Part shown: positions 1 through 52,238 of the stretch, piece after piece | Numbering within the stretch: position 1 is the first letter of the stretch | Layout of the letters: each line of letters begins with the position of its first letter | NCBI GenBank assembly: GCA_018433835.1 | Contig: JAHDQM010000010.1 | Span: forward strand, 1 to 64,000 | DNA length: 64,000 nt | Direction of reading: 5' to 3' | DNA from: Methanoculleus sp. | GTDB taxonomy: Archaea > Halobacteriota > Methanomicrobia > Methanomicrobiales > Methanoculleaceae | Program-made: the position numbers and the translations under genes | The notes under the pieces: generated by a model | Seen by the model: the letters and a program-made list of their open reading frames with translations, nothing else | Database searches by the model: none | What the model was told of the DNA's origin: nothing

Positions 1-141
1 ATCGTGCTTCGAATTACGACTGGCCTTTTGAGGGCAGGAGTTCGAGAAGTCATCGTGCTTCGAATTACGACTGGCCTTTTGAGGGCAGGAGTTCGAGAAG
101 TCATCGTGCTTCGAATTACGACTGGCCTTTTGAGGGCAGGA
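1..141 (-). repeat. 51-bp tandem repeat, 2.75 copies visible (hairpin-pair family)
   Basis: Two identical 51-base units (1-51 and 52-102) are followed by a third that matches for about 39 bases before diverging at about 141. The array probably continues left of the window. Read on the minus strand, each unit holds a CTTC/GAAG hairpin, the 9-base linker TCGAACTCC, a second hairpin (TGCCCT/AGGCCA, one mismatch) and GTCG. This is the same plan as the dispersed hairpin arrays at 5284-5406, 35321-35492 and 52012-52130. There are no unique spacers, so it is not CRISPR. Because 51 is a multiple of three, an open frame crosses it, but nothing else suggests coding. Confidence 0.9.
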
Positions 142-258
142 CTGGAGGTATTGCAGGTGCGTCCCCCAGCCACGATCTCCCCACAACCCCACCAAACCCC
201 CTATATCGCCGGACTTCCAACACTCCCTTAAGAGAACCGGAGTGGAGGAGTTCATAGA

Positions 259-1341
259 GTGACGACCGGCGGCCGGATCATCATGCACGTGGATATGGAC
301 AGCTTCTTCGCCTCCGTGGAGGTCCGCCGCGACCCCGCTCTTGCCGGGAGGCCGGTGATCGTGGGCGCCGACCCGAAGGGAGGGGCTGGCCGGGGGGTCG
401 TGAGCACCTGCTCTTATGAAGCCCGGCGGTACGGGGTCCACTCCGGCATGCCCATATCCCGGGCGTACGACCTCTGCCCGCACGGCGTCTACCTCCCGGT
501 GAATCGCCTGCTCTATTCCCGGGTCTCGGGGGAGATCATGACGATCCTCTCCCGGCGCGCCGGCCGCATCGAACAGGTGAGCATCGACGAGGCCTACCTC
601 GACGTCAGCGCTGCCGGGAGTTTTCCGGCGGCAGCGACGCTTGCCGCCGCAATCAAGCGGGAGGTCCGGGAAGAGGCGGGGCTCACCTGCTCGGTCGGCG
701 TCGCCCCGGGCAAGGCCGTGGCAAAGATCGCCTCCGCCTACAAAAAACCCGATGGACTGACAGTCGTCCCCCCGGACGAGGTCGCGGGATTCCTCGCCCC
801 CCTGCCGGTGGAAAAGGTGCCCGGCGTCGGGAAGAAGACCCGCGATGACCTCCGGCAGATGGCCATCCAGACCATCGGCGACCTTGCATGCCATGACGTC
901 CAGGACCTCATTGCCAGGCTGGGAAGACACGGCGTCCTGATGCACCGCCTCGCCCGGGGCATCGATGACGGGGAGGTGCAGGGCCGGCAGCGGTGCAAAT
1001 CAGTCTCCCGGGAGACGACGTTTGAAGCGGATACCGCCGACCCGTCCGTCCTCTCCGGGACCCTCGCCGAACTTGCGGACGAGGTCGCGGAGACACTTCG
1101 TGCCGAGGGCCTCCGGTGCCGGACCGTCACGGTCAAGGTCAGGTACCGCGGATTCGAGACGCATACCCGGTCCCGAACGCTGGAGCGGTTCACCGCGGAC
1201 CCCGAAGCGATCCGGCGGGCCGCATCCGCCCTGCTCCTGCCGTTCCTCAACGGGACGGACGTCCGGCTCCTCGGGGTCAGGCTCTCGACGCTGGAGGGTG
1301 GGTACACCCGGCAGGCGTCGATCGACGAGTTCTTCTCCTGA
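259..1341 (+). CDS. dinB: DNA polymerase IV (Y-family translesion polymerase)
   Basis: This is a Y-family DNA polymerase that copies past damaged bases, 360 residues, the usual length. The palm motif MHVDMDSFFAS lies at residues 9-19 with metal-binding Asp12, and the second catalytic pair Asp110-Glu111 sits in SIDEAYLD. A helix-hairpin-helix (VPGVGKK) follows near residue 187, then a little-finger domain from about 240 to 345. The C-terminus QASIDEFF fits a PCNA-interacting PIP box (Q352, I355, F358, F359), so recruitment by the sliding clamp is likely. The GTG at 259 is chosen because a purine-rich ribosome site (GGAGTGGAGGAG) ends eight bases upstream; ATG 283 is the alternative. A CTATATC box near 198-206 could be its promoter. 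Confidence 0.95.
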   Translation: MTTGGRIIMHVDMDSFFASVEVRRDPALAGRPVIVGADPKGGAGRGVVSTCSYEARRYGVHSGMPISRAYDLCPHGVYLPVNRLLYSRVSGEIMTILSRRAGRIEQVSIDEAYLDVSAAGSFPAAATLAAAIKREVREEAGLTCSVGVAPGKAVAKIASAYKKPDGLTVVPPDEVAGFLAPLPVEKVPGVGKKTRDDLRQMAIQTIGDLACHDVQDLIARLGRHGVLMHRLARGIDDGEVQGRQRCKSVSRETTFEADTADPSVLSGTLAELADEVAETLRAEGLRCRTVTVKVRYRGFETHTRSRTLERFTADPEAIRRAASALLLPFLNGTDVRLLGVRLSTLEGGYTRQASIDEFFS

Positions 1342-1395
1342 AACGCCCCCACAAGGCGAACCTTCTTTACGTCGCGTGCGCACCAGGGTGCCGGT

Positions 1396-2229: not shown

Positions 2230-2274
2230 TGTTTCGCCGTCCTCCCCGGGTTCTGTGGAAACGCCGGTGAAACT

Positions 2275-2287
2275 CATTTTAAAATTC
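2275..2287 (+). promoter_or_regulatory. TATA-like box upstream of the lipoprotein gene
   Basis: CATTTTAAAATTC is an AT-rich block in GC-rich surroundings, about 30 bases before the first possible start (GTG 2313). The distance fits an archaeal TATA box serving a nearly leaderless transcript. Confidence 0.45.
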
Positions 2288-2312
2288 CGGAACCAATATT
2301 GACCCGTTCGCG

Positions 2313-2837: not shown

Positions 2838-2839
2838 TC

Positions 2840-3313: not shown

Positions 3314-3390
3314 AAACCGCTTCTCCCGCCCAGTCACCGTCAGGGGCGGGGGAACGGTTATATCGTATGCCCGCTACCAGTAGCGTGACC

Positions 3391-4239
3391 ATGGGGGGAA
3401 TGTCCGGAATGAGTATTACAGGAAAGCTCTTCGGCAAGGGCGATCCCGAAGGCCGGGAAGGCGCCGGCACCGATACCTCAGTGAGCAGAAAGGCGGTCTC
3501 CCTCGCCCAGCAGGGACGATTCGGCGAGGCTATAGGTTGCTTTGACCGGGTGCTCGAAGAAGATCCGGCCAACGTGAAGATGTGGAACAACAAGGGTGTC
3601 TTTCTCGATCTCATCGGCAGGGACCAGGATGCGCTTGCCTGCTGGGAGAGAGCACTCTCGATCGACCCGGGTTTTGCTCCGGCATGGGTCTCCCGTGGAA
3701 TGCTGCACCGGCGCCGCAACCGGCTCGAGGAGGCGCTCGCCTGCTACGACCGTGCCCTGGAACTCAACCCGGACTCCGCGGTCGCCTGGTACAACCGGAG
3801 CGGCATCTTTATCGCGATGCACCGGCTGGACGATGCAATCGCCTGTTACGAGCGGGTTCTCGCGATCGATCCCCATTTCGTGGCGGCCTGGACCGATCTC
3901 GGCTACGCCCACTTCCTCGGGCACCGGCACGAGGATGCCATCGCCTGTTACGACAGGGCCATCGCCGACGATCCCGGGAGTGTCCGGGTCTGGAGCCTGA
4001 AGGGGGGTGCCCTGTATGTGCTCGGGGAGTACCGTAAAGCCCTCGAATGTTTCGATCAGGTGCTCGCGATCGATCCGAGGTATGCCGCCGGATGGAGCAT
4101 GAAGTGCAGTGTCCTCTACCACCTCGGCATGTACCGGCATGCGCTTGCGTGCGCCGACAAGGCGCTTGAGATGAACCCCTCCTGCGAACTGACCACCCAG
4201 GTCCGAAAGATGCTCCTCTCCCTCATCCAGCAGTGGTGA
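3391..4239 (+). CDS. Tetratricopeptide-repeat protein
   Basis: The protein (about 282 residues) is built of roughly seven 34-residue TPR units, each with the A-x-x-C-Y/F-D-R-x-L-x-x-D-P signature (for example ALACYDRALELNPDS and AIACYERVLAIDPHF). TPR arrays form scaffolds for protein binding; there is no enzymatic domain or membrane segment. A GTTATATC box at 3357-3364 would start transcription near 3385, so ATG 3391 (or in-frame ATG 3409) is preferred over ATG 3367. The 3' end abuts a decayed GH13 gene on the other strand and may overlie its lost end. Confidence 0.85.
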   Translation: MGGMSGMSITGKLFGKGDPEGREGAGTDTSVSRKAVSLAQQGRFGEAIGCFDRVLEEDPANVKMWNNKGVFLDLIGRDQDALACWERALSIDPGFAPAWVSRGMLHRRRNRLEEALACYDRALELNPDSAVAWYNRSGIFIAMHRLDDAIACYERVLAIDPHFVAAWTDLGYAHFLGHRHEDAIACYDRAIADDPGSVRVWSLKGGALYVLGEYRKALECFDQVLAIDPRYAAGWSMKCSVLYHLGMYRHALACADKALEMNPSCELTTQVRKMLLSLIQQW

Positions 4240-5283: not shown

Positions 5284-5406
5284 ACTTCGGGGAAGTCGCA
5301 ACTCGCACCTGGCGGTGCTCGAACTCCGCCTGCCCCTGGCGGGGCACGCGTCGTTGCTCGAAAACGCTTCGCGTTTTCTCGAACTCCCTCCCCTGCGGGG
5401 AGGTCG
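5284..5406 (+). repeat. Hairpin-linker array upstream of the GH13 remnant
   Basis: Consecutive short hairpins are joined by constant linkers: ACTTC/GAAGT (5284-5296), GCACC/GGTGC (5305-5318), linker TCGAACTCC (5319-5327), TGCCCC/GGGGCA (5331-5346), GAAAACGC/GCGTTTTC (5360-5378), linker TCGAACTCC again (5379-5387), CTCCCC/GGGGAG (5388-5402), then GTCG. This is the same family as 35321-35492 and 52012-52130. It fills the gap between the flavoprotein gene and the GH13 pseudogene. Confidence 0.85.
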
Positions 5407-5409
5407 TTT

Positions 5410-6621
5410 TCACCACACGGCGGAATGAAGGCCGTCGTCCCGCCGGAAAACCCGGAACGACCGGGACCCCTGCACCGCGTCGACGACGCGGTTGCTCGTC
5501 GCCCTCATGAACGCGGCAAGCGGCACCTGCATCCGGGCGTCCAGGCAGCCGTAGAGGAAGTTTCGCAGCGCCGTTTCCGCCCGCAGTTCGGGGATGAGAC
5601 GGCGCCGGAGGAGGGCGGTGTAGGTTCCGGCAAGCTGTGCGGCGGAGGTAAGGTGGCGGTCGACGGCGTGGGCGGCGAGCTCTGCGGTCCGGTGAGCGTA
5701 GAAGATCCCCTCGCCGAGGAGCGGGCTTGCAAACCCGGCCGCATCCCCGACGAGGACCGTCCCCTCATGGGCCGGAGAGGGGATGTAGTTCCCCAGCGGG
5801 AGCGGAAAGCCAACAGGTTTCCGATCGGTGAATGCAGAAAAGCCGACAGTCTTCAGGAACTCTTCGAAGCGTTCGGGGAGGCATTTTTCGTTCATCCGTA
5901 GCAGTCCCCCTATCCCCACGACAATCGCCTCCCTGTTCGGGAAGACCCACCCGTAGCCCCGCCGGCAGGCGGCAAAGACCAGGTGGGGTGTCGCGAGGTC
6001 GGCGTCCAGGCGGATCGACCCGTCTCCGTTCATGAGCGTCTCCGCCTCTTTGCGGGGGATCGCGAGTTCCAGCGCCCACCCGAGGTTTTCGCGCCACCGC
6101 TCGGTGTCGACGATGCTCTCCGGGAGGGAGCGCCGGACCCGGCTATGGACCCCGTCGGCCCCGATGAGGACCCGGGCGGCATACCGGTCCCCGTCGGATG
6201 TCGTGACGGTCCGGCGGGCGTGGTCGATTGCGGTCACCTCCGCGCCCGTCTGGACTTCCACCCCTGCTCGTGCCGCCATTCCGGCAAAATAGGCATCGTA
6301 ACGCTCCCGGCGGGTGAAGTAGACCGGCTCCGCAAGGTCTTCGGCGAGGATGCGGCTGCTCCCGATGTAGAGCGCGTATCCTGTCCCGGTGAAGTCGAGC
6401 AGCCCTTCCCGCCGGAGGGCACCGACCGGCAGATGAAAGACCCGGTCGAGAAACCGGACGGATTTCTGGCTGAGGCAGCCGCCGCAGACCTTATCCCGGG
6501 GATACGTCCGCTTTTCGAGGAGCGCCACCCGGTGCCCGGCCTCCCCGAGCAGGCAGGCGGCGGTGCTCCCGGCGGGCCCGCCCCCGACGACGACAACATC
6601 GTAATCAGGCCGGCTCCCCAT
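5410..6621 (-). CDS. Geranylgeranyl reductase-family flavoprotein
   Basis: A 403-residue FAD-dependent oxidoreductase. The N-terminal Rossmann motif VVVVGGGPAGSTAA binds FAD; PRDKVCGGCLS and the late GDAAGFASPLLGEGI block are hallmarks of the geranylgeranyl reductase family, which saturates isoprenoid chains of archaeal lipids or quinones. Which substrate this paralogue uses cannot be read from the sequence. ATG 6621 is chosen over the longer open frame because GAGGAGA lies just upstream and the Rossmann fold starts right after. It diverges from the radical SAM gene beginning at 6756. Confidence 0.88.
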   Translation of the reverse strand: MGSRPDYDVVVVGGGPAGSTAACLLGEAGHRVALLEKRTYPRDKVCGGCLSQKSVRFLDRVFHLPVGALRREGLLDFTGTGYALYIGSSRILAEDLAEPVYFTRRERYDAYFAGMAARAGVEVQTGAEVTAIDHARRTVTTSDGDRYAARVLIGADGVHSRVRRSLPESIVDTERWRENLGWALELAIPRKEAETLMNGDGSIRLDADLATPHLVFAACRRGYGWVFPNREAIVVGIGGLLRMNEKCLPERFEEFLKTVGFSAFTDRKPVGFPLPLGNYIPSPAHEGTVLVGDAAGFASPLLGEGIFYAHRTAELAAHAVDRHLTSAAQLAGTYTALLRRRLIPELRAETALRNFLYGCLDARMQVPLAAFMRATSNRVVDAVQGSRSFRVFRRDDGLHSAVW

Positions 6622-7876: not shown

Positions 7877-8680
7877 TTACCTGACCTTCCCGAACTCGGT
7901 GCCCACGTCTGCGGCGGACAGGTAAGTCCGGTCGCCGAACCTCTCAAGCGCCGTGATCACGCTCTCCGGGGCATCGTTTTTCCGGGCGTGGGTAATCAGG
8001 TCCTGTCTGCCCGCCGGGTAGTCAATGCCCTTAAGGTAGACCTGCAGGTCGGCGGCGGAGAGATGCGCGAGGGACGGCGCTCCCGGGGTTGTCGCGGGCC
8101 GTTCAACCGCCGCTCCCTCCCCCTCGGCCTTCATCATGGACTCGAGCGTCGGAGCATGAGCCTCTGTCACCGGCCGGGCCTCCACCTCCTCGGCTTTTAT
8201 CGGCATTTCCTCGCGGGCGTCTCTCTCACGCACCTCCACGCGCTCCGTCGTGACGACCTCGCGGGGCGGGGCCTCCGTCCGGGTCACGGCCCGGGCCTCC
8301 TCCTGGCTCGGGGGGCCCATGGGCCGTCTCGACTCAATCAGGCTCCAGTTCGCCTCTCTCGGCCAGTCACTCTCCGAGAACCCGGGCTCGTTGTCGAGCC
8401 TGTACTTGCTGATGTTCGCCACGAAGACGTCGTCCCCCGGCCGATATACCATGGCCTCGATGGGGATCGCGAAGAGTTTCGTTCCGAGGCCGAACATGCC
8501 CCCGGTCCTGAGCACCGCGTATGCCACTCTTCCCGTGGGCAGGCCGACCCGGAGGCTTGAGATCTCACCGAGGTCATAGCCCTCCGGGTTCTTCACCCGT
8601 TTCCCCACGACATCCTCGGATGAGAAGAACTCATGCCCCTCCCCCCTCCGCACCTGCTGTTCCAGAATCGTTTCAGCCAT
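7877..8680 (-). CDS. PRC-barrel protein with DUF2795 domain
   Basis: The protein (267 residues) has an N-terminal PRC-barrel domain (about residues 20-95, with VGKRVKNPEGYDLGEI and GRVAYAVLRTGG), a charged low-complexity middle rich in Glu, Ala and Arg, and a C-terminal DUF2795 domain (LQVYLKGIDYPAGRQDL to the end). PRC barrels act in RNA processing and photosynthetic complexes; DUF2795 has no assigned role. The next gene (8883-9935) is a paralogue with two DUF2795 copies. ATG 8680 follows GGTGG; ATG 8692 lies just upstream in frame. No membrane segment is seen. Confidence 0.82.
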   Translation of the reverse strand: MAETILEQQVRRGEGHEFFSSEDVVGKRVKNPEGYDLGEISSLRVGLPTGRVAYAVLRTGGMFGLGTKLFAIPIEAMVYRPGDDVFVANISKYRLDNEPGFSESDWPREANWSLIESRRPMGPPSQEEARAVTRTEAPPREVVTTERVEVRERDAREEMPIKAEEVEARPVTEAHAPTLESMMKAEGEGAAVERPATTPGAPSLAHLSAADLQVYLKGIDYPAGRQDLITHARKNDAPESVITALERFGDRTYLSAADVGTEFGKVR

Positions 8681-8882: not shown

Positions 8883-9935
8883 TCACTTGACGTTGCCGAA
8901 CTCCGTGCTCACGTCTGCGGCTGACCGGTAGGTCCGGTCGCCGAACCTATCGAGCGCCGCGATCACGTCCTCCGGAGCGTTATGCTCCCGGGCGTGGGAG
9001 ATCAGGTCCTGTTTGCCCGCCGGGTAGTCCATGCCCTTGAGATTGACCTGCAGGTCGGCGGCCGAGAGGTGCGCGAGGGACGGCGCCCTCGTCCGGGCAA
9101 CGGGGGACTCCTCGCGGACCTCCTCCAGGATGGTCTCCCCTGGCCGGGTCTCCATGTCGCCCGGTTGTTCCCCACGGGTCTCTCTGCCGAACTCCACGCT
9201 CACATCCGCGGCTGACCGGTAGGTCCGGTCGGAAAAGCCCTCGATCGCCGCGATCACGCTCCCCGGGGCATCGTTTTTCCGGGCGTGGGTGATCAGGTCC
9301 TGTCTGCCCGCCGGGTAGTCCATGCCCTTAAGGTAGACCTGCAGTCCGGCGGCCGAGAGGTGTCCGGGAGCCGGCCCCGGGATTGTCGTGGGCCGTTCGG
9401 CCTCTGTTACCGGCCGCTCCTCGGCACGCTGCCCCGTCGGCTGCCCTCCCCAGCCGCCCGCGACCGTCTGGACGGGCGGCGGGACCGGAACGGTTCTCTC
9501 TCTGCCCGGGGGCGTGGACTCCGCCGTTGCCGCTGCGCCTGTGGCCGCCGCCGCCGCACGCGCCGGCGGTGGTGTCCGGATCAGGCTCCAGTCCCCTTCA
9601 AGAGGCATCCTGTCACGGGAAAATCCGTGAGTGGTGTCCAGTGTTCGCTTATCCGCATCCACGACGGCGACCCTCTCCCCCGGGCGGGTAAGAACCGCTT
9701 CCCAGGGAATGGCGAAGTGTTTCTCGCCGAACCCGAGTATTCCCCCGTAGGAGAGCACGGCATACGCGATGCAGCCGCTATCGCGATCAATGGCGACATC
9801 GTTGATATCGCCGAGGCTCTCTCCGTCCGGGTTTCGTACCTTGATATCCCTGATGTCGTGTGCGCGCATCAGGTCCACTATCTCTTCCCGTCTCGGCCGG
9901 GTCTCCAGCACCGACCCTGCCTGTCTCTCAGCCAT
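8883..9935 (-). CDS. PRC-barrel protein with two DUF2795 domains
   Basis: A 350-residue paralogue of the 7877-8680 protein. The PRC barrel is near residues 20-110 (VRNPDGESLGDINDV, GCIAYAVLSYGG). An Ala/Pro-rich linker leads to a DUF2795 copy (LQVYLKGMDYPAGRQDL), then a second copy at the C-terminus (LQVNLKGMDYPAGKQDL). DNA encoding the three DUF2795 copies in the two genes is very similar, pointing to recent duplication or gene conversion. ATG 9935 is chosen for the strong GGAGGGAG site just upstream. Function is unknown; the pair may be co-transcribed. Confidence 0.82.
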   Translation of the reverse strand: MAERQAGSVLETRPRREEIVDLMRAHDIRDIKVRNPDGESLGDINDVAIDRDSGCIAYAVLSYGGILGFGEKHFAIPWEAVLTRPGERVAVVDADKRTLDTTHGFSRDRMPLEGDWSLIRTPPPARAAAAATGAAATAESTPPGRERTVPVPPPVQTVAGGWGGQPTGQRAEERPVTEAERPTTIPGPAPGHLSAAGLQVYLKGMDYPAGRQDLITHARKNDAPGSVIAAIEGFSDRTYRSAADVSVEFGRETRGEQPGDMETRPGETILEEVREESPVARTRAPSLAHLSAADLQVNLKGMDYPAGKQDLISHAREHNAPEDVIAALDRFGDRTYRSAADVSTEFGNVK

Positions 9936-22737: not shown

Positions 22738-24573
22738 ATGACATCAGTTGAACCAGAATCCAACAGTCCGGTCTCCACTGCGGCAGAAGCCATCCTGCAG
22801 GAGAACCCGATGCCCATTATCATCTGGGACCGCGACCTGCACGTGAAAGCGGTGAACAAAGCGTTCCTGCAACTCACCGGCTACGATCGAAAGAAAGTCG
22901 AGTCGATGACACTCAAGGAGTTCAGCCGGGTCGGTGACGACCGGTCCGACCAGGAGATGGCGGATGCCTTCAGGACGAAGCAGGAGACGTCCGCAGAATT
23001 GACTGTTGCCTTCCCACACGGCACGTTCTCCCTTGTCCGCTACAGCGTCCCGCTCCTGAACGGGTCGGGCGACGTCGAGAGCGTGATGGCGGTCTACAAG
23101 GACGTCACCGATCAGAAGCAGCAGATCGAGCAGATGCGGGTGCTCCAGCAACAGGCCGATGCGATAATCCAGGAGAACCCGATGCCCATCCTCCTCTGGA
23201 GCACCGACAGAACGGTGGAGATCGCGAATAAGGCGTTCTGCAGACTGAGTGGCTTTTCCGAGGAGCAGGCCGCGCGTCTCACCCTTGGGGATTTCAAGTA
23301 CGTCAGCCAGTCCGGAAACAGCGTTACGGATACGCTGAAGAGCCGGAAACCCAGCAAGGGTGAAGCCATCCTCGAGTTTCCGGCCGGCGTCCGCATCGTT
23401 GAGCGTTACAATATTCCTCTCTTAGATAAGGGAGGAGATCTCGCGAACGTGCTCACCGTCTACAACGACATCACGGAATCGCGGACCCTTCAGGAGCGGC
23501 TTAACAAGAGCATCGAGGAACTCGCAGGAAGTCTCGGCGCGATCGCCGTCGGCGACCTGACGCGGCTGGCACCCACTTATGCGGACGATCCGCTGGACAA
23601 GATCAAGAAAGACCTGAATAAAACCCTCCAGACACAGAAGGAGTTCTTCCGGCAGACCCTCGAACAGGCGGACGCACTCGAGCATGCGATCATCGACGTC
23701 GGGAAGGGTGCCGACGAGATCGCCCGGGCCTCACAGCAGGTGGCGAACACCGCCCAGAAGACATCGGACGGCGCGAAGGAGCAGATCCGGCAGCTCGACC
23801 GGGTCACCAAGGAGATCGGCGACCTTTCCGCAGCGGTGGAGGAGATTGCAAGCACGGCCCAGGAGGTCCGGGACCTATCGATGAACGTCGCAAAGGCCGG
23901 AGAATCCGCCGTCGGGCTCGGGAACGAGGCGAGCTCGAAGATGCAGGCGGTGCAGCGGATCTCCGAGCAGGCCGTCGAGGAGATCACCAACCTGAACGCG
24001 AAGATGCAGGACATCAGCCACATCGTGAAGTTGATCACCGATATCGCGAACCAGACCAACCTCCTCGCACTCAACGCCGCGATCGAGGCAGCCCGTGCCG
24101 GGGAGCACGGCCGTGGGTTTGCAGTCGTCGCAGGCGAGGTCCGGAACCTTGCCGGAGAGTCGAAGAGCGCGACCCGGCAGATCGAGGAAGTGATCGGCGG
24201 CGTCACCGCAAGCAGCGGAAAGACCGCCGAAGCGATGCGGAGTGCGCATACGGAGATACTCAGCGGGATTGAGAGCGTGAACAAGACGATCGTGGCCCTC
24301 AACAAGATGGTCGCCGACGTCAACGGGTCCGTTAACGGCATCGCCGACATCTCCCGTGCGACCGAGAACCAGGCCGATGCGGCGAACGTGGTCACGACGA
24401 GTATCGAGGAGGTCTTCTCCCTGATCCAGGAGGGTGAGAAGGGCACGGAAAGCCTCGCTGCGCTCGCCGAAGAGTCGTCCGCCTCGACCGAGGAGGTTGC
24501 CAGCGCCTCGAACGAGATCCAGCAGATGGCTCAGCAGCTTCGCGATAGAGTTGCCCTGTTCAGGTTCCAGTGA
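22738..24573 (+). CDS. Soluble methyl-accepting chemotaxis protein with two PAS domains
   Basis: A 611-residue chemoreceptor. Two similar PAS domains (about residues 15-125 and 140-250) are followed by a HAMP-like segment ([14 protein letters not shown]) and a long coiled-coil signalling domain whose conserved tip reads [20 protein letters not shown] then [15 protein letters not shown] (about residues 435-475). There is no membrane segment, so it senses an internal signal in the cytoplasm. ATG 22738 has AGAGGT upstream. It is followed after nine bases by cheW, its adaptor. No cheA, cheB or cheR lies in the window. Confidence 0.93.
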
Positions 24574-29385: not shown

Positions 29386-29408
29386 GCACCTGATGGTGCT
29401 TGAACTCC
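29386..29408 (+). repeat. Single hairpin-linker unit
   Basis: GCACC-TGAT-GGTGC (29386-29399) is followed directly by the family linker TTGAACTCC (29400-29408). It is a solitary half-unit of the dispersed hairpin family. The surrounding gap 29338-29848 otherwise holds only the larger element at 29577-29781. Confidence 0.75.
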
Positions 29409-29576
29409 GGTCTTCCCGTCTTGTGCTCGTGGGAATAGGTTCAACTGGTGCTGGAGACCTCGATCCTGGGTACCCGCAACCTTGTGGATCGTGAGGCACG
29501 GCTGGAAGGATTTATTCAGGGGGTTACAAATACCGGAGTAGCCTACTCGATGGAAAAGCCCGGTACACTGGACCGT

Positions 29577-29781
29577 GGGGATATCGCCATTGGGGGTGGG
29601 GCTGACGGGGAGTGCGATGCTCCGAGGGAGCGGAGCACGAGAAGCCGTGAGGCTTCGAGGGGGGCACGCCCCCCTCCCCTGTCTCCATCGTATTGGGCAT
29701 ATCTGTAACCCCCCACCGCCCGCGCTTCGCGCTCCTCCCGCCCCCCCTAGGGGGGGGCGGGCAGTGCGTGGCGATATCCCC
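29577..29781. mobile_element. Structured inverted-repeat element, copy A1 (about 205 bp)
   Basis: The ends are perfect 13-base inverted repeats (GGGGATATCGCCA at 29577-29589, its complement at 29769-29781). Inside are GCTGACGGGGAGTGCGA, hairpin GCTCC/GGAGC (29619-29631), linker GGAGCACGA, hairpin GAAGCC/GGCTTC (29641-29656) and a long GAGGGGGG/CCCCCCTC stem (29657-29676). The right half has a GCGC/GCGC hairpin, a CCCCCCC/GGGGGGG stem and GGCAGTGCGTGGCGATA. Copies A2 (45841-45993) and A3 (51847-52238) share this order. No transposase or target duplication is evident, so it would be a non-autonomous, MITE-like element if mobile. Confidence 0.8.
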
Positions 29782-29848
29782 TCGAAAGCCGTGCGTGGTG
29801 ATAAGCGATGTTCCGATAGGAAGCGGCTGTCCTGCCGAACGCCTCCCC

Positions 29849-32077: not shown

Positions 32078-35000
32078 GATGCCGATCTGCATCTGCACGC
32101 CTTCGACGTCCCAGTCCCTCTCGAGCGCAAAGGATTCCGCCGGCCTCTCTCCGTCGGTGCGGCGGACGGTGAGGGCTGCCGCCCGCACCTCGCCGGCGAT
32201 CTCCTTCTGCCACTCATCTTCCCCGATGAGTGAGGCCACCCGCTCGTCGGCGACATCCACGGCAGCGACGATGAAGTCGTCGACGTTCAGGTCCAGCTGG
32301 CGGCGCATCTCCTGGATCCGCCGGATCACCTCGCGGGCGTAGCCTTCGGATTCCAGCGCCGGCGTGAGGGTGACGTCGACGTAGACCGTCGCGTCCTTCA
32401 TGGGGGCGGCAAAGACGCCCTCGGGAAGGCCCTCCGCGAAGGCAACGTGGCGCGCGGCGATCTCGTAGCCGTCGAGTTCGGCCTTTCCTTCCCGCTCGAT
32501 CGCGGCCTTCAGGGCGGTACCGTCCGCCTGCTCGATCAGCGCTTTGACCTTCGGCCCAACCCTCCCGAACTCCGGGCCGATGGCCCGCATCACCGGCTCG
32601 GCCTGCCAGAGGATCCGCTCCCATGTCCCTGTGACGACCCTGACCGTCCGGGCGTTCGCCCGGTTCAGGGCGAGGTCGTTTAAGCCCTCGAGAGCCGCCT
32701 TCACGTCAACGCTTTCGGTGACGACCACGGTCTGGGCAACCGGCCAGCGGAGTTTTCTTCGACCTGCCTGCCGGGCGGTGGCGACCGCGTCGTCGAACGA
32801 CTGGACGATCTCCATAGCGCCCTCAAGATCGGGCGCGATCAGGAGGTCGTCCGTCTCCGGCCAGTCGAGCATATGGACGCTCTCCGGGTCGTTCTCGAGG
32901 CGGAGGTTGCCGTAGATCTCCTCGGTGATGTGGGGGGTAAACGGCGCGAGGAGCGCTGTCAGGCGGCGCATGACGTAGTAGACGGTCTCGTAGGCGTACC
33001 GCTTCTCCGGTGAATCCTCTTCAAGCCACATCCTCGGCCGGACGAGCTGCACGTACCAGCGGGAGAGGTCCTCGAGGATGAAGGCGGCGAGCGCCCGCGT
33101 CACCTTATGGAGCTGGTACTCCTGCATGTCCTCGGCCGTAGCCCGGGCGAGCGAGTTTACCCGGGAAATAATCCAGCGGTCCTCGTCCGGCATATCGTTG
33201 ATATTGGCCCGAACGAACGACCCGTCCCACCGACCGCCGTCGCCGGATGCCGGCTCGAACGAATCCAGGATCATGTACGGGAGCGGGAACCGGTAGACGT
33301 TCCAGAGGATGTTGAGCGTCCGGTGGATGGTCTTTACGCTGTCCCAGTTGAACTTCAGGTCGTCCCAGGGGGCGTTCGCCCAGAGGACGTAGAACCGCAG
33401 AACGTCGATGCCGAACTGGTTCATCACCTCTTCAGGCGTCACCACGTTTCCGAAGCTCTTGCTCATCTTGCGTCCTTCGGCATCGAGAGCGAACCCGTGC
33501 ATCAGGACGCTTTTATAGGGGGCGCGGCCGAACGCCACGGTGCTCGCCCCTAGCTGTGAGTAGAACCAGCCCCGGGTCTGGTCCTGCCCCTCGGTGATGA
33601 AGTCCGCCGGCCAGTAGCGGTCGAAGGCCTCGCGCTCCCTGGGGAACCCGAGGGTCGCCCATGACGCGACCGCCGAGTCGAACCAGACGTCGAAGATGTC
33701 GGCGACCCGGTGCATCTCCCCGCCGCAGGGGCACGGGACGGTGACCGCGTCCACGTAGGGGCGGTGCGGGTCGGCGACCTTCGTCCCGGACCGTTCTTCG
33801 AGCTCGGCGACGGTGCCGATGACGGTGTGCTCCCCGCACTGCTCGCACTGCCAGATGGGGATGGGGATCCCCCAGTAACGCTGCCGGGAGATGCACCAGT
33901 CACGGGAATCCTTGACGAAGTCGTGGAACCGGGCGCTCCCCGCCCACTCCGGGTACCACTTCACCTTCGCGATCTCCTCGAGCATCGGGCCGCGGATCTC
34001 GGTGGCCTTCAGGAACCACTGGGCCGTCGCCCGGTAAATGATGGGGGTCTTGCACCGCCAGCAGTGGCCGTAGCGGTGGGTGATCGTCCGTCGGGCGAGG
34101 AGGTAGCCGCCGAGCGCGTCGATGACGAGATCGTTTGCGTCCCGGACGTACATGTCCGCAAACGCCCCGGCCTCCGGGGTGAAGCACCCGCCGGAATCGA
34201 CCGGGCAGAATACCTCAAGCCCTTCCCGGATGCCGACCAGATAGTCGTCCCACCCGTGTCCGGGGGCGATGTGGACGAGACCGGTGTTCTCGAGCGTGAC
34301 GTAGTCGGCCGCAACGACCCGGTGCCGGATCTCCGCCTGGCGCGGCACGTGGCCGGCGAGCGGCGAAGCGTACTCCGTCCCGAGGAGGTCGTTCCCGCTG
34401 CCCCTCTCAAGGACCGTATAGTCCTGGTACCGGCCCATCTTCAGGACGGACTCGACGAGTTCGTCGGCGATCCAGAGGATCTCTTCGCTGCCGTCCTTCT
34501 TCGCCCGCACCCGCGCGTAGGTGAACGCGGGGTTGACCGCCACCGCCACGTTCGCCGGGAGCGTCCAGGGCGTCGTCGTCCAGATCACCAGGTACTCGTT
34601 CTCGCGCCCGACGATAGGGAACTTGACGAAGATGGAGGGGTCGGTCTCGTCCCAGTACTCCACCTCCGAGTCGGCGATCGCCGTCTCGCACCGGGGGCAC
34701 CAGTTCACGACCCGGTGGCCGCGCTCGAGGAGCCCGCGCTCGTCGGCCCGCTGGATCGCCCACCAGGCGGACTCGATGTAGCCCTCGTCGATTGTCTGGT
34801 AAGGGTTGTCGAAGTCGAGCCAGACCCCGAGCCGCCGGAACTGATCGCTCATGATCTCCATGTGCGTCACCGCAAACGTCCGGCACTGCTCGATGAATGC
34901 GGCGATGCCGTACTCCTCGATGTCTTTTTTGGAGGTGAACCCGAGCTGGTGCTCCACCTTTACCTCGATGGGGAGGCCGTGCATGTCGTAGCCGGCCCGT

Positions 35001-35275: not shown

Positions 35276-35320
35276 TTGTTGTTGGGGGACAAAGTGTTTT
35301 GCGCGACGGGCCGGAGGGCC

Positions 35321-35492
35321 GGAGCGGGAGAAAACGCGAAGCGTTTTCGACTCGCGATCGGTCGCTTGGCAACTCCTTTCGCGTTCTTCGCACCTGCGGT
35401 GCTCAAGCTCCGGGCGTTCACACCTGACGGTGCTCACACTCCTGCTCGAAGCCTGGCGGCTTCTCAAGCTCCGGACGTTGTCCGTCGCACCC
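35321..35492 (+). repeat. Hairpin-linker array upstream of ileS
   Basis: In order: GGAGCGGGA (an inverted linker), GAAAACGC/GCGTTTTC (35330-35348), GCACC/GGTGC (35390-35402), linker TCAAGCTCC (35403-35411), CACC/GGTG (35421-35432), linker TCACACTCC (35434-35442), GAAGCC/GGCTTC (35448-35463), linker TCAAGCTCC (35464-35472), GGAC/GTCC (35473-35483) and GTCGCACCC (35484-35492). Copies face both directions. The array fills the gap 35276-35634, which otherwise holds only a TATA box for the next gene. Confidence 0.88.
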
Positions 35493-35603
35493 TCCGGCCA
35501 GTCGCGTTCCGCCCATCGCTCTTCACGAGTTCGCGTGAGGTAATGCAGTGAGGATGGCAAAGAGATGCCGGGTGCCCCGAAGATCCGCAACCCCGCCCAA
35601 CCC

Positions 35604-35634: not shown

Positions 35635-36117
35635 ATGCAGATCGCGGTCATCGGGAGAGGGGACTGCTCCGAGGAGGAGTACGAAGCGGCGGAGACCATC
35701 GGCTACCTCATCGCCGGCAACCATGAGACCGTCTGCTGCGGCGGCCTCTGCGGGGTGATGGAGGCCGTCTGCAGGGGGGCAAAAGAGGCCGGCGGGACGA
35801 CCGTCGGCATCCTCCCTGACACCGGGGAGGGAAACCCCTACCTCGACGTGGTGATCCGCACCGGGATGGGCCACGCGAGGAACGTCGTCCTGGTCAACTC
35901 CGCGGACGCGGTGATCGCCGTCGGGGGAGGCTACGGCACGCTCTCGGAGATCGCAGTCAGCCTCAAGACGGAGAAACCGGTCTTCGGTCTTTTGACCTGG
36001 AAGATAGAGGGGGTGTTTGCCTGCGCCACGCCCGAGGAGGCGGTCATCCTCGCAGTTCGCGCAGGACGCCTGTCTCGCCCGTCTCGTAGCCCCCGAGGTC
36101 CAGGAGGATCTGCCTGA
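35635..36117 (+). CDS. LOG-family (TIGR00725-type) nucleotide-binding protein
   Basis: A 160-residue Rossmann protein. IAVIGRGDCSEEEY, CCGGLCGVMEAVCRGAKEAGG, GMGHARNVVLVNSADAVIAVGG and GYGTLSEIAVSLK match the family related to lysine decarboxylase-like/LOG phosphoribohydrolases. The PGGxGTxxE signature appears as GGGYGTLSE. Catalytic activity on nucleoside monophosphates is plausible but untested for this subgroup. The start ATG 35635 is set by the TATA box. The last 25 codons overlap the 3' end of the convergent moeA-PBP gene by 74 bases and encode a low-complexity Arg/Ser/Pro tail. Confidence 0.82.
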   Translation: MQIAVIGRGDCSEEEYEAAETIGYLIAGNHETVCCGGLCGVMEAVCRGAKEAGGTTVGILPDTGEGNPYLDVVIRTGMGHARNVVLVNSADAVIAVGGGYGTLSEIAVSLKTEKPVFGLLTWKIEGVFACATPEEAVILAVRAGRLSRPSRSPRGPGGSA

Positions 36118-37951
36118 ACGCCTCCGACGAGATGGTTTCCACGAGGGCAGCGATCCGGGGGTCGTCGAGCATCTCACGGTGCATCACGAGCTCGTAACGC
36201 TCCGTCGCCACCGGGACGAACGCGAGATCGAGCGCCTTTGCCGCGCTGTAGACCCCAACACCTGCGTCCGCCTCCCCGGTCCGGACCGCAAGGGCCACCG
36301 CAAGGTGGGTCGTCGCCTCGCGTTCGTACCCGGAGATGGACGCCGGGTCGATGCCGCGCTGTGCGAGATGGTGGTCGAGGAGCATCCTGGTCCCGGACCC
36401 CTTCTGCCGGTTGACGAACGCCCGCCCCGGCAGGTCGTCGAACGAGAGGCCGTCGCGTGAGATGACCCCCTGCTGGCGTTCTGCCACGCAGAGGAGGACG
36501 AGGTCGGCTCCGGGCATATAGCGCTCCAGGTAATGAGTGTTGTAGGTGCCGTCGGGGGCGAGGAGGTGCATCGGGGCAGCGTGGCACTCCTGCTTCTTCA
36601 GCGCGATCACCCCGCCCATGCTCCCTACATGGGTGGAGTGGATATCGACCCCGCGCGGCCGCACCAGGTCGGCCAGGTAGTCGAGGGCCGGGTCGTGGCT
36701 GCCGGTGATAAGCACCGCCTCCTCCGCCTCGGCGCGGGGGACGGTGAGCCGGACGTCCACGGTCTCCCCTGCCTCGGCGCCCTCCTTCTGTGAAGGGATC
36801 TGCATGTAGCCGTTCGCCCGCACCACGCTCATCTGGACTCCCGCGCCCCGTGACTGGGGAACCGCCACCCAGCGCTCATCGATCCTCCCCGCCGAGAGGA
36901 GGACGAACTCGTCGGTCCCGATATCCGAATGGAGACTCGTGGTCAGCCGGGCGGCGACGCGCTCCGGCTCGCGGACGGGGAGGCCGTAGCGGGTGATAAG
37001 CGGCAGGACGATCTCGCGGAGCACGGTTGCCGCCGCGAGCGGGTAGCCGGGGAGCCCGATCACCGGCTTTCCCTCGATCCTGCCGATGATCACCGGCTTT
37101 CCGGGCTTGATGGCGACCCCGTGCGCCAGCACCTCGCCGAGATCCGCGATGATATCGGCGGTGTAGTCCCGTGTCCCGGCGGACGATCCCGCCGAGACGA
37201 GCAAGACGTCGTTCTCGGCGACGCCGCGCCGGACGGCGTCCCGGATCAGGTCGTAGTCGTCCGGGACGATTTCGTAGCGGTGCGTCTCCACGCCCGCCTC
37301 CGCAAGGACGGCCGCGGCCATCAGGGTGTTGCTCTCCACGACCTTTCCCGGCGGCGGCATCTCGCCTGCCGGTATGAGTTCGCTCCCGGTGGGGATCAGG
37401 CCCGCCCGGACGTTTAAGACCGCAACTTCCGTGACCCCGTAGTTCGCGAGCGCTCCTGCGTCGTGCGGCCGGATCCGGTGCCTCCTTGGGAGGATCATCT
37501 CCGATTCGCCGATATCCTCGCCGACCGGGCGGACGTGCTGCCAGGGGCTGACCGGCTTTCTGATGGTATAGGTCTCGCCGTCGCGACGTTCCGTGGGAGC
37601 GGAGCGGGAGAAGTCGTCAGACTTCGACCCGACCCAGACGTCCTCGATCATGATCACCGCGTCGTAACCGGGCGGGACGATGTTCCCCGTGTTGACCCTC
37701 GCCGCATCCGGGAGGGTCACCGGGCGCTGCTCGCTCGCCCCGATGGTATCGGCGCTTCTCGCCGCGATCCCGTCCATCGCCGAGATGTGGATGGCGGGGA
37801 CCGAGAACCGGGCGAATATGGGCGCGGCGGTGATCCTCCCCACCGCCCCGGCGGTCACCGGGACGCGGATGGTCCCGGGGACCGCCGGAAATGAGCGCTC
37901 TACGAGTGCCAGCGCCTCGCGAAGCGTTATGACCGAGAGGTAGCGCTTCAC
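36044..37951 (-). CDS. MoeA-type molybdopterin protein with C-terminal PBP-like domain
   Basis: A 635-residue archaeal fusion. Residues 1-410 are a MoeA domain (AMDGIAARSADT, GYDAVIMIEDVW, GSELIPAGEMPPPGKVVESN, VLLVSAGSSAGTRDYT, GLPGYPLAAATVL), which inserts molybdate or tungstate into molybdopterin. Residues 440-635 are a periplasmic-binding-protein-like domain (ITGSHDPALDYLADL), perhaps an oxyanion sensor. The GTG start overlaps the stop of moeA in GTGA. Residues about 108-125 (GSKSDDFSRSAPTERRDG) are encoded by a hairpin-family unit inserted in frame between VW and ETYTIRKPV. Function serves formylmethanofuran and formate dehydrogenases. Confidence 0.9.
   Translation of the reverse strand: MKRYLSVITLREALALVERSFPAVPGTIRVPVTAGAVGRITAAPIFARFSVPAIHISAMDGIAARSADTIGASEQRPVTLPDAARVNTGNIVPPGYDAVIMIEDVWVGSKSDDFSRSAPTERRDGETYTIRKPVSPWQHVRPVGEDIGESEMILPRRHRIRPHDAGALANYGVTEVAVLNVRAGLIPTGSELIPAGEMPPPGKVVESNTLMAAAVLAEAGVETHRYEIVPDDYDLIRDAVRRGVAENDVLLVSAGSSAGTRDYTADIIADLGEVLAHGVAIKPGKPVIIGRIEGKPVIGLPGYPLAAATVLREIVLPLITRYGLPVREPERVAARLTTSLHSDIGTDEFVLLSAGRIDERWVAVPQSRGAGVQMSVVRANGYMQIPSQKEGAEAGETVDVRLTVPRAEAEEAVLITGSHDPALDYLADLVRPRGVDIHSTHVGSMGGVIALKKQECHAAPMHLLAPDGTYNTHYLERYMPGADLVLLCVAERQQGVISRDGLSFDDLPGRAFVNRQKGSGTRMLLDHHLAQRGIDPASISGYEREATTHLAVALAVRTGEADAGVGVYSAAKALDLAFVPVATERYELVMHREMLDDPRIAALVETISSEAFRQILLDLGGYETGETGVLRELRG
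37579..37625 (-). repeat. Hairpin-pair unit embedded in a coding sequence
   Basis: Read on the minus strand: GAAGTC-TGAC-GACTTC (37625-37610), linker TCCCGCTCC (37609-37601), hairpin GCTCC/GGAAC with one wobble (37600-37588), then GTCGC. This is one complete unit of the dispersed family, lying inside the MoeA domain of 36044-37951 without breaking its frame. Confidence 0.75.
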
Positions 37952-39150
37952 CACAGGATCACCTCCACCTCCTCGCCGACCTCGAACCCCTCGCTCGACG
38001 CCGGGACCCGTACCAGTCCCTCGCTCTGCACCAGGGTGTTGAGGAGCCCCGACTTCCCGAAGACCGGCGTCGCCTCCCCATTGCTCGTGCTGACCCGGAC
38101 GTAGTCCTCCCGCCCGCGGGTCGAGGGGACGTTCTGCGTCAGCCGTGCGCGGACGGTTCGCCGGGAGACAGCGGTCTGCCGCATCGCCGCGAGCAGGTGG
38201 TCGACGACGGCGACGAGCACGACGAAGGCCGAGGCCGGGTGCCCGGGGAGCCCGATGACCGGCTTTCCCCGCGCTGTCCCGATGATGGTGGGTTTTCCGG
38301 GCGCGAGGGCGATCCCGTGCACCAGCACCTCCCCGAGTTCCGCGATGACCGCTGCGGTGTTGTCCCGCTCGTCCTTCGAGGACCCTCCCGAAACCAGAAC
38401 TGCGTCGCACCTCTCAAGCGCCGAAGAGACCGCTCGCTTCAGCACCGCCCGTTCGTCCCTGACGATCCCGAAGTAGACCGGATGGCAGCCTCGCTCCGTC
38501 ACGAAGGCGCCGGCGAGGTAGGAGTTCGCGTCCCGCACCTCACCCGGCCCGGGGGTCTCGACGACGGGAACGAGTTCGTTCCCCGTGGATATGATCCCGA
38601 TCTTCGGCATCTTCACCACCGAGATCCGGTCGGCGCCGACAGCCGCGGCGACGCCGATCTCCCGGGGCGAAAGCACGCGCCCCCGTTCCAGGACCGCCTT
38701 CCCTGCCCCGAAGTCTTCGCCCCGGAAGACCACGTTCTCGCCGGGCGCCACCGGGCGGTGCACCAGGACGTCGTCCCCGATCTGCTCGGTATGCTCGATC
38801 ATCACCACCGCGTCCGCGCCCCCGGGGAGAGCGCCGCCGGTGGGGACGTACAGGCACGATCCCCGGGAGACTATCCCCGCATCCGCGCTTCCCATCCCGA
38901 CCCGGCCCCGGCACTGGAGCATCGCCGGGATGGCCTCGGAGGCCCCGGTGGTCTCGGCCGCGGCGACCGCGTAGCCGTCGACCGTAGACCTGTCGAATCC
39001 CGGGATATCGATATCGGCACGGACGTCCCTCGCGAGGACCCGGTGGAGGGCGTCTTCGAGCGGGATTTCCTCGCACCCGGGCGGGGGCGCGATCTTCCGC
39101 ACCGTTTCCACGGCCTCGCTGACGGATACGACCTCAAGGAAGAGGCTCAT
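37948..39150 (-). CDS. moeA: Molybdopterin molybdenumtransferase MoeA
   Basis: A 400-residue MoeA: STVDGYAVAAAET, GADAVVMIEHTEQ, GEDFGAGKAVLERG, ISTGNELVPVVETPGPGEV, DAVLVSGGSSKDERDN and GLPGHPASAFV cover all four domains. It incorporates molybdenum or tungsten into the pterin cofactor. It overlaps both neighbours by four bases (the small gene at 39147-39329 upstream and the MoeA-PBP fusion downstream), so the three form one translationally coupled operon. Having two MoeA paralogues side by side is common in archaea and may reflect separate Mo and W routes. Confidence 0.94.
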   Translation of the reverse strand: MSLFLEVVSVSEAVETVRKIAPPPGCEEIPLEDALHRVLARDVRADIDIPGFDRSTVDGYAVAAAETTGASEAIPAMLQCRGRVGMGSADAGIVSRGSCLYVPTGGALPGGADAVVMIEHTEQIGDDVLVHRPVAPGENVVFRGEDFGAGKAVLERGRVLSPREIGVAAAVGADRISVVKMPKIGIISTGNELVPVVETPGPGEVRDANSYLAGAFVTERGCHPVYFGIVRDERAVLKRAVSSALERCDAVLVSGGSSKDERDNTAAVIAELGEVLVHGIALAPGKPTIIGTARGKPVIGLPGHPASAFVVLVAVVDHLLAAMRQTAVSRRTVRARLTQNVPSTRGREDYVRVSTSNGEATPVFGKSGLLNTLVQSEGLVRVPASSEGFEVGEEVEVILW

Positions 39151-45527: not shown

Positions 45528-45769
45528 TTGTTGACTGGATTGTAGATGATTGTAGAAATGATCTCAAATTCTTTGTCACTTTTTACTAGATTCAGGCTGG
45601 ATCTTGTGTAATTTCTAACTGCAATTGCATCGCATTGTATCATACCGGATCATATTGTATCGGACGGTAAAGACGAAAGGATAGTGAACAAAGGGAGTAT
45701 TAAATTTTTGCTCAGTTGGGGGGATGTTTTGGTTCTGGAGATCGGAATTAAGGGGCGTGTGGATGTCCA

Positions 45770-45790
45770 GAGTATGAACACCGTCAGGTG
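45770..45790 (-). repeat. Isolated hairpin of the dispersed family
   Basis: CACC-GTCA-GGTG (45779-45790) has a degenerate linker TTCATACTC on its minus-strand 3' side. It matches the CACC/GGTG hairpin plus TCACACTCC of the array at 35421-35442. Confidence 0.55.
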
Positions 45791-45840
45791 CGAAGTGTGG
45801 CAAAAAGAGTAGTCAAAACGGGGAAAATATCGCGGTATAG

Positions 45841-45993
45841 TGGACCGTGGAACTATCGCCACGTGGGGAGGGGCTGACGGGGAGTGCGACGTTCCACAGG
45901 AACGGAGCTCGACCACCGTCAGGTGGGGAGGGGGGATGCTCCCCCCTCCCCTGTCCCCACCCCCCTCATGGCGATATCCCCTCGGAATCCGTG
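45841..45993. mobile_element. Structured inverted-repeat element, copy A2 (about 153 bp)
   Basis: The left end (TGGACCGTGGAACTATCGCCA) resembles the left of A1 and pairs imperfectly with TGGCGATATCCCC on the right. A second stem joins GTGGGGAGGGG with CCCCTGTCCCCAC. The core has GCTGACGGGGAGTGCGA, hairpin CGTTCC/GGAACG (45890-45904), linker GAGCTCGA, hairpin CCACC/GGTGG (45913-45926) and a GGAGGGGGG/CCCCCCTCC stem. Same order as A1 and A3 but with different stem bases. The rest of the gap to hypF (45994-46153) is AT-rich and empty. Confidence 0.8.
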
Positions 45994-48364: not shown

Positions 48365-48389
48365 TGAAATTTCAGCAAAAATTTATGGA

Positions 48390-48407: not shown

Positions 48408-48421
48408 AATAGGGTATCGCA

Positions 48422-51733: not shown

Positions 51734-51846
51734 GGTTTTTTCGGGATTGTTGGGGAGCCGGCCGGAAAAGATGGCTCTCCCAAAGATCCGCGATTATTCG
51801 TGCTCTTCAAGTTTTCTTGTCCCCCAGTTTCACGTTTCGGGACGTT

Positions 51847-52238
51847 GCAAACCCCATGCACGGATTTCCACTGGCTATCGCCACGTAGGGGTAGGGCTGA
51901 CGGGGAGTGCGATGGGCGGAACGCCCGGAGCTCGACCACCGTCAGGTGGGGAGGGGGGAGCTCCCCCCTCCCCTGTCTCTACCCCGTAAGGCTAACCTGT
52001 AACCCCCACTCGAAGATCTTTGGTCTTCTCATGCTCCGGTTCTAACGAACCGTCGCACCCCGCCCGGCCTCCGGCCTCCTCCTCCGCACCTTCGGTGCTT
52101 AAACTCCGCTCCTCCGGAGCGTCGCACCCCACACCTCGGGGCGGGGGCAGTGCGTGGCGATAGGCGATGCCCCGACGGGCCATCGCTGGAGAAGGCCGAA
52201 GGTGCGTAGCCCGATGGAAAGCCGTGCATGGGGTTTGC
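51847..52238. mobile_element. Structured inverted-repeat element, copy A3 (about 392 bp)
   Basis: Terminal 24-base inverted repeats (51847-51870 and 52215-52238) differ at one position. A second pair, GGCTATCGCCACG against CGTGGCGATAGGC, lies inside. The left core matches A1/A2: GCTGACGGGGAGTGCGA, hairpin GGGCG/CGCCC (51914-51926), linker GGAGCTCGA (51927-51935), hairpin CCACC/GGTGG (51936-51949) and a GGAGGGGGGAG palindromic stem. A full hairpin-linker array (52012-52130) sits in the middle, and the right end GGCAGTGCGTGGCGATA equals that of A1. No gene lies in 51734-52344. Confidence 0.85.
52012..52130 (+). repeat. Regular hairpin-linker array inside element A3
   Basis: The clearest array: GAAGA/TCTTC (52012-52028), linker TCATGCTCC (52029-52037), GGTTC/GAACC (52038-52051), GTCGCACCCC (52052-52061), GGCC/GGCC (52066-52076), linker TCCTCCTCC (52077-52085), GCACC/GGTGC (52086-52098), linker TTAAACTCC (52099-52107), GCTCC/GGAGC (52108-52120), GTCGCACCCC (52121-52130). 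Linkers keep length and end; stems differ freely. Confidence 0.9.

Follow-up and report, generated by a model that had tools for sequence, protein, structure and literature searches.

Copies of a double-hairpin repeat in the window

The window, by which is meant the whole 64,000-nt stretch analysed here, comprises bases 1–64000 of one contig of a Methanoculleus genome of 2.94 Mb in 63 contigs. It carries a dispersed repeat with a unit of ~46 nt that consists of two hairpins, X and Y, and that reads TC-X-TCRNRCTC-Y-TCGYN in the direction used by the sequence-only reading from which this work started. Hairpin Y takes in the final C of CTCC and, in most copies, the G of GTCG.

The window was searched with model R1, built from ten units of the GCACC/CCACC class (five of them inexact, with an altered prefix, a shortened loop or as composites), and with model R2, derived from 18 exact copies. 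At E<0.001, R1 matched 16 places, of which 15 are family units: 13 of the 16 fell at the nine places that had been listed previously, all nine of which carry the motif, two were additional units (35300–35340 and 45752–45794, both on the minus strand, the latter degenerate), and one was a partial match to Y only (32566–32587). The 14 places found by R2 at E<=0.01 are all among the 15 family units of R1. The units, their host elements and the one gene interrupted in frame are as follows.

1–141, minus: tandem array of a 51-nt hairpin unit, ended by the contig end; weak (R1, E 2e-4 and 4.5e-4; R2, 0.0034)
5302–5348, plus: unit, X GCACC/GGTGC, long Y GCCTGCCCC/GGGGCACGC (R1, E 3.5e-14; R2)
5357–5410, plus: unit, X GAAAACGC/GCGTTTTC, Y CTCCCC/GGGGAG (R1, E 8.7e-6; R2)
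29386–29420, plus: X hairpin and linker, Y unclear (R1, E 2.9e-7; R2)
29562–29795, no strand: host element with TATCGCCA ends (limits approximate), around the unit 29611–29659
29611–29659, minus: unit, X GAAGCC/GGCTTC, within the host element at CCCCCCTC^CCCGTCAG (R1, E 3.5e-13; paralogous empty site)
35300–35340, minus: unit, X GAAAACGC (R1, R2; orthologous locus in genome G008)
35387–35440, plus: unit, X GCACC/GGTGC, then a second X-like hairpin (R1, E 9.4e-9; R2)
35445–35491, plus: unit, X GAAGCC/GGCTTC, Y GGAC/GTCC (R1, E 7.4e-13; R2)
36044–38410, minus: open reading frame with moeA (MoeA_N, MoCF_biosynth, MoeA_C, PBP_like), carrying the unit 37580–37628
37580–37628, minus: unit in frame within moeA, 48 nt = 16 codons (R1, E 6e-5; R2, E 0.0011)
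45752–45794, minus: degenerate unit (R1, E 2.3e-8; R2)
45836–45992, no strand: host element with TATCGCCA ends (limits approximate), around the unit 45883–45929
45883–45929, minus: unit, X CCACC/GGTGG, Y CGTTCC/GGAACG (R1, E 1.8e-24; R2, E 3.5e-19)
51824–52261, no strand: host element whose 47-nt ends are inverted (81% complementary), with three units inside
51906–51952, minus: unit, X CCACC/GGTGG, Y CGGGCG/CGCCC (R1, E 4.2e-24; R2, E 1.4e-18)
52009–52059, plus: unit, X GAAGA/TCTTC, Y CGGTTC/GAACCG (R1, E 1.1e-9; R2)
52083–52128, plus: unit, X GCACC/GGTGC, Y CGCTCC/GGAGCG (R1, E 1.6e-18; R2)

Two of the places first listed need rewording: the repeat at 1–141 is present, but in the form of the weakly matching 51-nt array at the contig end, and the copy given as 29386–29408 shows X and the linker, with Y unclear. 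The larger host element ends in inverted TATCGCCAC...GTGGCGATA, and a G-rich hairpin of the host element comprises GGGGTGGGGCTGACGGGGAGGGG plus CCCTCCC.

Perfect X hairpins followed by the linker occur 11 times in the window (one of these, near 24557, is a chance coding hairpin) and 0 times in the reversed window, and 16 times against 6 in the reversed control over 220 kb of genome G003; over 220 kb of G011 the enrichment is weak, with 6 against 3. Across the genome holding the window, with 150 candidates scored per search, there are at least 151 matches to R2 at E<=1e-4 and at least 163 to R1 at E<=1.

Pairing and covariation of the stems

Stems were counted in 157 units anchored on the linker, Y and TCG. 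X pairs perfectly in 134 of them, while 16 have a single mismatch, 2 have two and 5 have three; with the locus-fetching units left aside (n=98), 75 are perfect, 16 have one mismatch and 7 are worse. Stems differ among copies, as had been claimed, but they are drawn from a limited repertoire that recurs in many combinations (the 157 units show 11 kinds of perfect X arm and 29 of Y arm). Arm pairing reached 0.80 over 26 distinct X pairs, compared with 0.535 after shuffling (maximum 0.623), and 0.635 over 97 distinct Y pairs, compared with 0.442 (maximum 0.497).

For 17 distinct exact copies drawn from the best R1 matches, the covariation score was 0.428, compared with 0.116 on average after shuffling; 0 of 500 shuffles reached the observed score, and both sides had changed in 7 of 13 pairs, a linker/tail pair among these. 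The earlier claim that pairing is kept while both sides change is thus borne out. The linkers had also been described as fixed and single-stranded, and here the joints are indeed constant, but base 5 of the linker covaries with base 4 of the tail (157 units: G-C 83, A-T 57, A-C 12, G-T 1, other 4; without locus-fetching units, n=98: 44 G-C, 42 A-T, 9 A-C, 0 G-T, 3 other), so that part of the linker is paired and Y runs on beyond an internal TC/TC loop. The neighbouring pair of linker base 6 (C) and tail base 3 (G) was set by the search pattern and is uninformative. On the opposite strand, hereafter the GA strand, the TC/TC internal loop is a tandem GA/GA, and folding programs drew it in several units.

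Wobbles at the closing pair of Y, where the first base was free, are one-sided: C.A, which is G.T on the GA strand, occurs in 22 distinct stems and T.G in 1. Elsewhere in Y (9 against 5) and in X (8 against 4 distinct stems) the asymmetry is not significant.

Exchange of stems between fixed joints

At the minus-strand unit 35300–35340, both stems differ from those at the orthologous locus in G008, while the joints are alike (GCGCGAC ... GGAGCGGGAGAA ... TTCGACTCGCGA), and in homologous host elements identical joints repeatedly enclose different stems, among them CGTTCC, CGGGCG, CGGTTC and CGCTCC. Stem differences of one pair fit compensatory change, and those of several pairs are what whole-hairpin exchange would give. 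Two further rearrangements were seen: in locus L137 the X loop is reverse-complemented relative to the window locus, and in one array of genome G019 two right arms of Y are mixed. Taken together, the pairing and covariation, the replacement of stems at the same locus and in homologous host elements, and the one-sided wobble closing Y support selection on the fold along with exchange of hairpins. The sequence-only reading had proposed either selection on fold plus linker, in a structured RNA or in protein-binding DNA, or copying in which stems are rewritten; fold selection and hairpin exchange are both supported, and a structured RNA is disfavoured on the evidence given below.

Stem replacement of this kind could arise by template switching, with no transposase at all: replication would stall at hairpins and switch to another copy via microhomology at the joints, and would thereby copy whole hairpins, nest units in loops, build tandem arrays and swap stems. 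The whole stems that differ between identical joints, the reversed X loop in L137 and the array with two Y right arms all speak for such a process. Reversed X loops are, however, rare in the tally, and template switching alone would leave the fixed G and A at the loop ends (see below) unexplained. It is a doubtful explanation of the family as a whole, albeit one to be taken seriously.

Loops, folded strand and gene context

Read on the GA strand, the majority of loops are GNA or GNNA. Without locus-fetching units, 160 of 187 X triloops are GNA and 68 of 100 X tetraloops are GNNA, 9 of these 68 being GNRA, and in Y the counts are 59 of 74 and 12 of 21 (2 GNRA). Contiguous stretches alone gave 14 of 18 GNA and 16 of 22 GNNA (2 GNRA) for X. 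The tally over all loci is biased, because the pattern used to fetch many of them fixes part of the X loop, and stands at 173 of 203 and 232 of 285 (12 GNRA) for X; for Y it is 93 of 117 and 23 of 35 (4 GNRA). Background hairpins in 220 kb of G003, with both loop readings counted and the units kept in, gave 33 of 286 GNA and 18 of 248 GNNA. Loops of the GNA and GNNA types produce extraordinarily stable DNA mini-hairpins, according to the accessible part of PMC4686876.

Seven of the 15 window units were folded. The GA strand had the lower fold energy in all seven, as DNA and as RNA alike, whereas its DNA z-score against shuffles was the better one in just 5 of 7, and one of the RNA folds was a different structure. 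My inference is that folding takes place on the GA strand, more likely as DNA. UUCG-type RNA tetraloops were considered for the X-Y strand and, by eye, lie out of register with the stems.

Gene context was assigned to 34 units with a home-made caller, which placed 28 between genes and 6 in called frames. Downstream of at least one gene lie 26 of the 28 intergenic units, the other two being at the contig start without a left gene, and none of the 28 lies between divergent genes. Two units within 35300–35491 are located in the N-terminal part of a frame for a tRNA synthetase; the units there are probably intergenic, since the alignment of relatives to the synthetase frame ends at this point.

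This placement would suit a structured RNA of the GA strand, be it a 3' UTR element or a small RNA, that was dispersed by copying and selected for its fold; the covariation of stems and of linker with tail and the stable RNA folds of the GA strand point the same way. Its tetraloops are nevertheless GNNA and rarely GNRA (9 of 68), and no Rfam family lies over the units at gathering score, the window hits being two tRNAs and an S15 leader. Over one host element, Rfam at E<=1 returned just microRNA models far below gathering. With the variable distribution described below also against it, a structured RNA is an improbable account of the family.

Insertion at filled and empty sites

Filled and empty sites were compared in 36 cases covering 27 distinct units, with insert lengths of 36–61 searched and with empty sites that are mostly paralogous host repeats rather than orthologous loci, and the insert measured 44–48 nt in 31 of the 36. 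Direct repeats at the junctions were of 0 nt (9 cases), 1 (11), 2 (3), 3 (6), 4 (1) or 6 nt (6), which rules out a constant target duplication. Direct repeats of at least 4 nt beside units in general were not enriched (88 against a shuffled mean of 82.6), and no fixed target tetranucleotide was seen beside the inserts in these comparisons. The range of junction repeats from 0 to 6 nt would suit template switching; the narrow insert length would not.

A conventional MITE, mobilised through terminal inverted repeats by a DDE transposase, would account for the inverted ends of the larger host element, but not for a unit that has neither visible terminal inverted repeats of its own nor a constant target duplication and that inserts within, and independently of, the host element. 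This origin is disfavoured and considered highly improbable.

The clearest insertion is the one in moeA. Ten genomes cover this locus: the site is filled in G000, G005, G008, G003 and G006, exactly empty in G001, G002, G011 and G026 (a member of another genus), and partly deleted in G014, where 12 nt are left. The flanks of G011 are closest to those of G003 and G014 and are 98% and 96% alike to those of the filled G003 over 100 nt per side. This pattern, with the outgroups empty and the nested species G011 exactly so, implies that the unit was gained and that a single lineage then lost it exactly, barring replacement of a very short tract by recombination; the absence in G011 could alternatively come from strongly localised recombination with an allele lacking the unit. 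What was inserted in moeA is one clean unit, and the alignment shows a repeat of only 2 nt at the ends, which again argues against template switching. At another locus a unit is present in G006 and none in G003, with a host element that is otherwise alignable.

Insertion into genes is rare. The scan covered 447 other units that have 200 nt of sequence to either side; the moeA unit, which has a different linker, lies outside this set. Of the 447, 18 stand in an open coding-like frame, and of those 18 the genuine in-frame units are L200:423 and perhaps L117:6545, the others looking like chance hairpins. Weak matches in a gene common to G003 and G011 (L225:10214 and L235:14732, E 0.004) were treated as chance.

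Units also lie within the loops of other hairpins, including other copies, and within a CTTCGCG-type palindrome. Complementary flank arms of at least 6 were found in 12 of 145 units, compared with a shuffled mean of 2.8 and a maximum of 6 in 50 shuffles. In G019 a tandem array holds 14 copies of 46 nt. The type of loop, the precise insertion and the nested insertion together favour a mobile single-stranded DNA hairpin element over a structured RNA gene.

Distribution and candidate enzymes

A search of 41 genomes with R1 gave matches in 23, all of them members of the genus (23 of 25); G013 and G020 within the genus and 16 genomes of other families had none. The copy number of the unit differs widely between species, and its presence at a given locus often differs among related species; both observations tell against a structured RNA. 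The double-hairpin repeat is real, genus-wide and mobile.

Under stricter filters and a lower limit on candidates, 33 of 120 genomes of the order had matches: 22 genomes of the genus including the one holding the window, G117 from another genus of the family with 48 matches, and ten further genomes with 1–5 matches each, which may stem from transfer or contamination. The family genomes G095 and G124 gave no matches in this search. In the GTDB collection, most of the at least 80 stretches listed come from Methanoculleus species or methanogen MAGs, and six of those listed are non-archaeal records that look like chance matches in coding sequence. No exact match to GCACCTGNNGGTGCTCRNRCTCC was found in IMG/VR viruses.

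A Y1 transposase was rejected as the mobiliser, as PF01797 was not found in the genome holding the window, an absence that counts in favour of template switching. PF01797 is present in 6 of 25 genomes of the genus, in which the unit has 5, 114, 0, 0, 4 and 8 matches; the genome with 114, G010, is the exception in combining PF01797 with many copies. It was not found in the other 19 of the 25 genomes searched, some of which are incomplete. Cas1 was set aside as a candidate mobiliser, being present in 40 of 41 genomes and hence uninformative.

Relation to described repeats

The sequence-only reading knew of no described family of this kind. For the unit itself this holds within open-licence PMC text, in which no description of the double hairpin was found; the G-rich host sequence, however, has been published and REP repeats similar in kind have been described in bacteria, as far as the accessible parts of PMC8044849 and PMC3733652 go. 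The former reports repetitive G-quadruplex sequences in Methanomicrobiaceae, which lie between genes and occur in Methanoculleus and its relatives. The host element fits their description in its G-rich hairpin, and the accessible part of PMC8044849 covers this G-rich sequence without mention of the double-hairpin unit.

The closest described kind is that of the GTAG and CGTC REP repeats. With GTAG-REP/REPIN sequences, as presented in the accessible part of PMC3733652, the unit shares short hairpins, high copy number, a mostly intergenic position near gene ends, occurrence in clusters, complementary variation of the stems and some intragenic copies. It differs in lacking the GTAG tag, its joints being TCRNRCTC and TCGYN, and in having two dissimilar hairpins whose tandem order is constant, where GTAG-REP/REPIN sequences in that source are mostly inverted dimers. 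It also differs in the enzyme: a RAYT (Y1) is expected in copy-rich genomes with GTAG-REPs, and PF01797 was not found in the genome holding the window. On the other strand, the joint of the unit reads GGAG, a tag that some REPs use. By the more general measure of REP-like repeats, i.e. high copy number in intergenic positions at gene 3' ends, the unit belongs with them.

The CGTC-REP families, which include RPE-4 and RPE-6 of Rickettsia, are without a known dedicated transposase, have intragenic copies and in some cases lie within other palindromes; each element has one stem of 8–9 bp starting with A-T, and loops of 4–5 nt (all from the accessible part of PMC3733652). The unit resembles them in its intragenic copies and its placement within palindromes, and its Y can read CGTC at the 3' end, which happens only when Y ends in CG. 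Its stems follow other rules, with perfect X arms of 5–8 bp, no A-T rule and loops of mostly 3–4 nt, and unlike CGTC elements it joins two hairpins and contains an internal TC/TC loop. The in-frame insertion in moeA corresponds to what defines the Rickettsia-type palindromic elements, namely insertion in frame into protein genes. The string 'Methano' does not occur in the text of PMC3733652.

Elements of the IS200/IS605 family have hairpins that act on one strand and insert without target duplication (described in part in PMC6006769). The unit likewise has no constant target duplication, but neither a TnpA (Y1) in the genome holding the window nor a fixed target motif was found. The defining tags, the stem rules and, for GTAG, the enzyme thus set the unit apart from its closest described relatives. 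By analogy it appears to work as REP and RPE repeats do, as a short, palindromic, non-autonomous sequence that is intergenic and sometimes intragenic.

A candidate single-stranded DNA element

With moderate confidence, I read the unit as a REP-like, non-autonomous mobile element of ~46 nt with two hairpins that acts as single-stranded DNA. The strand reading GA-hairpin-GA would be its working strand and, once single-stranded, would fold into hairpins capped mostly by GNA or GNNA loops. A putative activity handling single-stranded DNA would then copy or move the folded unit to a further site that is itself single-stranded and often able to form a hairpin. Fold selection, along with exchange of whole hairpins among copies, would then give rise to covarying stems between fixed joints.

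A variant that dispenses with a transposase is that the copying itself is driven by structure, GNA/GNNA-capped hairpins being exchanged at replication as entire modules among dispersed copies, with stems rewritten and joints persisting; new units would also enter hairpin loops and even genes, and exact loss would be possible. I regard this as unlikely, though not far-fetched. REP-like repeats are common in bacteria, and they include kinds without a Y1 transposase. The archaeal family offers a unit of defined make-up, filled as well as empty sites at orthologous loci, an exact absence within a nested species, nested insertion, stem exchange at the same locus and a genus with many sequenced species, and it lets copying driven by DNA structure, an enzyme acting on single-stranded DNA and selection on the fold be told apart. 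Tandem arrays of the unit probably also explain breaks in the present assembly.

Insertion targets of the units

Many ~46-nt double-hairpin units are housed in a larger repeat, whose ends read TATCGCCAC...GTGGCGATA and which is present three times in the window.

Larger host repeat, ends TATCGCCAC...GTGGCGATA
29562-29795
45836-45992
51824-52261

The outer ends of this host repeat are of two interchangeable kinds, CACGGATTTCCACTGG or CAGTGGACCGTGG, which by their sequences look like mutually inverted versions of each other. The published G-quadruplex repeat (PMC8044849) is contained in the host repeat. Palindromes of a distinct family, which read CTCACGCGAAG...CTTCGCGTGAG and have CGCGAAG at the core, are dispersed intergenically (window ~35355-35545; locus L232 at G003:599299; further gaps in the genus genomes G003 and G011), and these palindromes themselves serve as a target for units.

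Variation and tandem arrays of the units

The X hairpin of window 5357-5410, GAAAACGC-TTC-GCGTTTTC, reads GAAAACGC-GAA-GCGTTTTC at the orthologous locus L137; on this comparison, it is reverse-complemented in place. Locus L243 of genome G019 carries an array of 14 copies of 46 nt each (796-1442), in which the right half of Y occurs in two mixed versions, TTCGGTCCG and TAGCGGAACG, each pairing imperfectly with one common Y left half. Unit tandem arrays with a period of 46-62 were also found at many contig ends of the window's own genome (C36, C34, C50, C17, C21, C45, C39, and the window start), and therefore the assembly probably breaks there and the real copy number is higher. A model search of the genus genomes returned no unit matches in G020, and this genome has 19 matches to the IS200-type transposase family Y1_Tnp, many of them fragmentary.

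Other features of the window

Further features of the window
3615-4076, 102-nt periodic repeat within a reading frame
7879-8085, 8885-9091, 9176-9382, a 207-nt repeat present three times, with 79-85% identity between copies
61190-61261, minus strand, S15-Methanomicrobia ribosomal protein leader (RF03137), 72.7 bits

The 207-nt copies probably represent repeated protein domains. The 102-nt repeat has a period of 34 residues, which points to TPR-type protein repeats.
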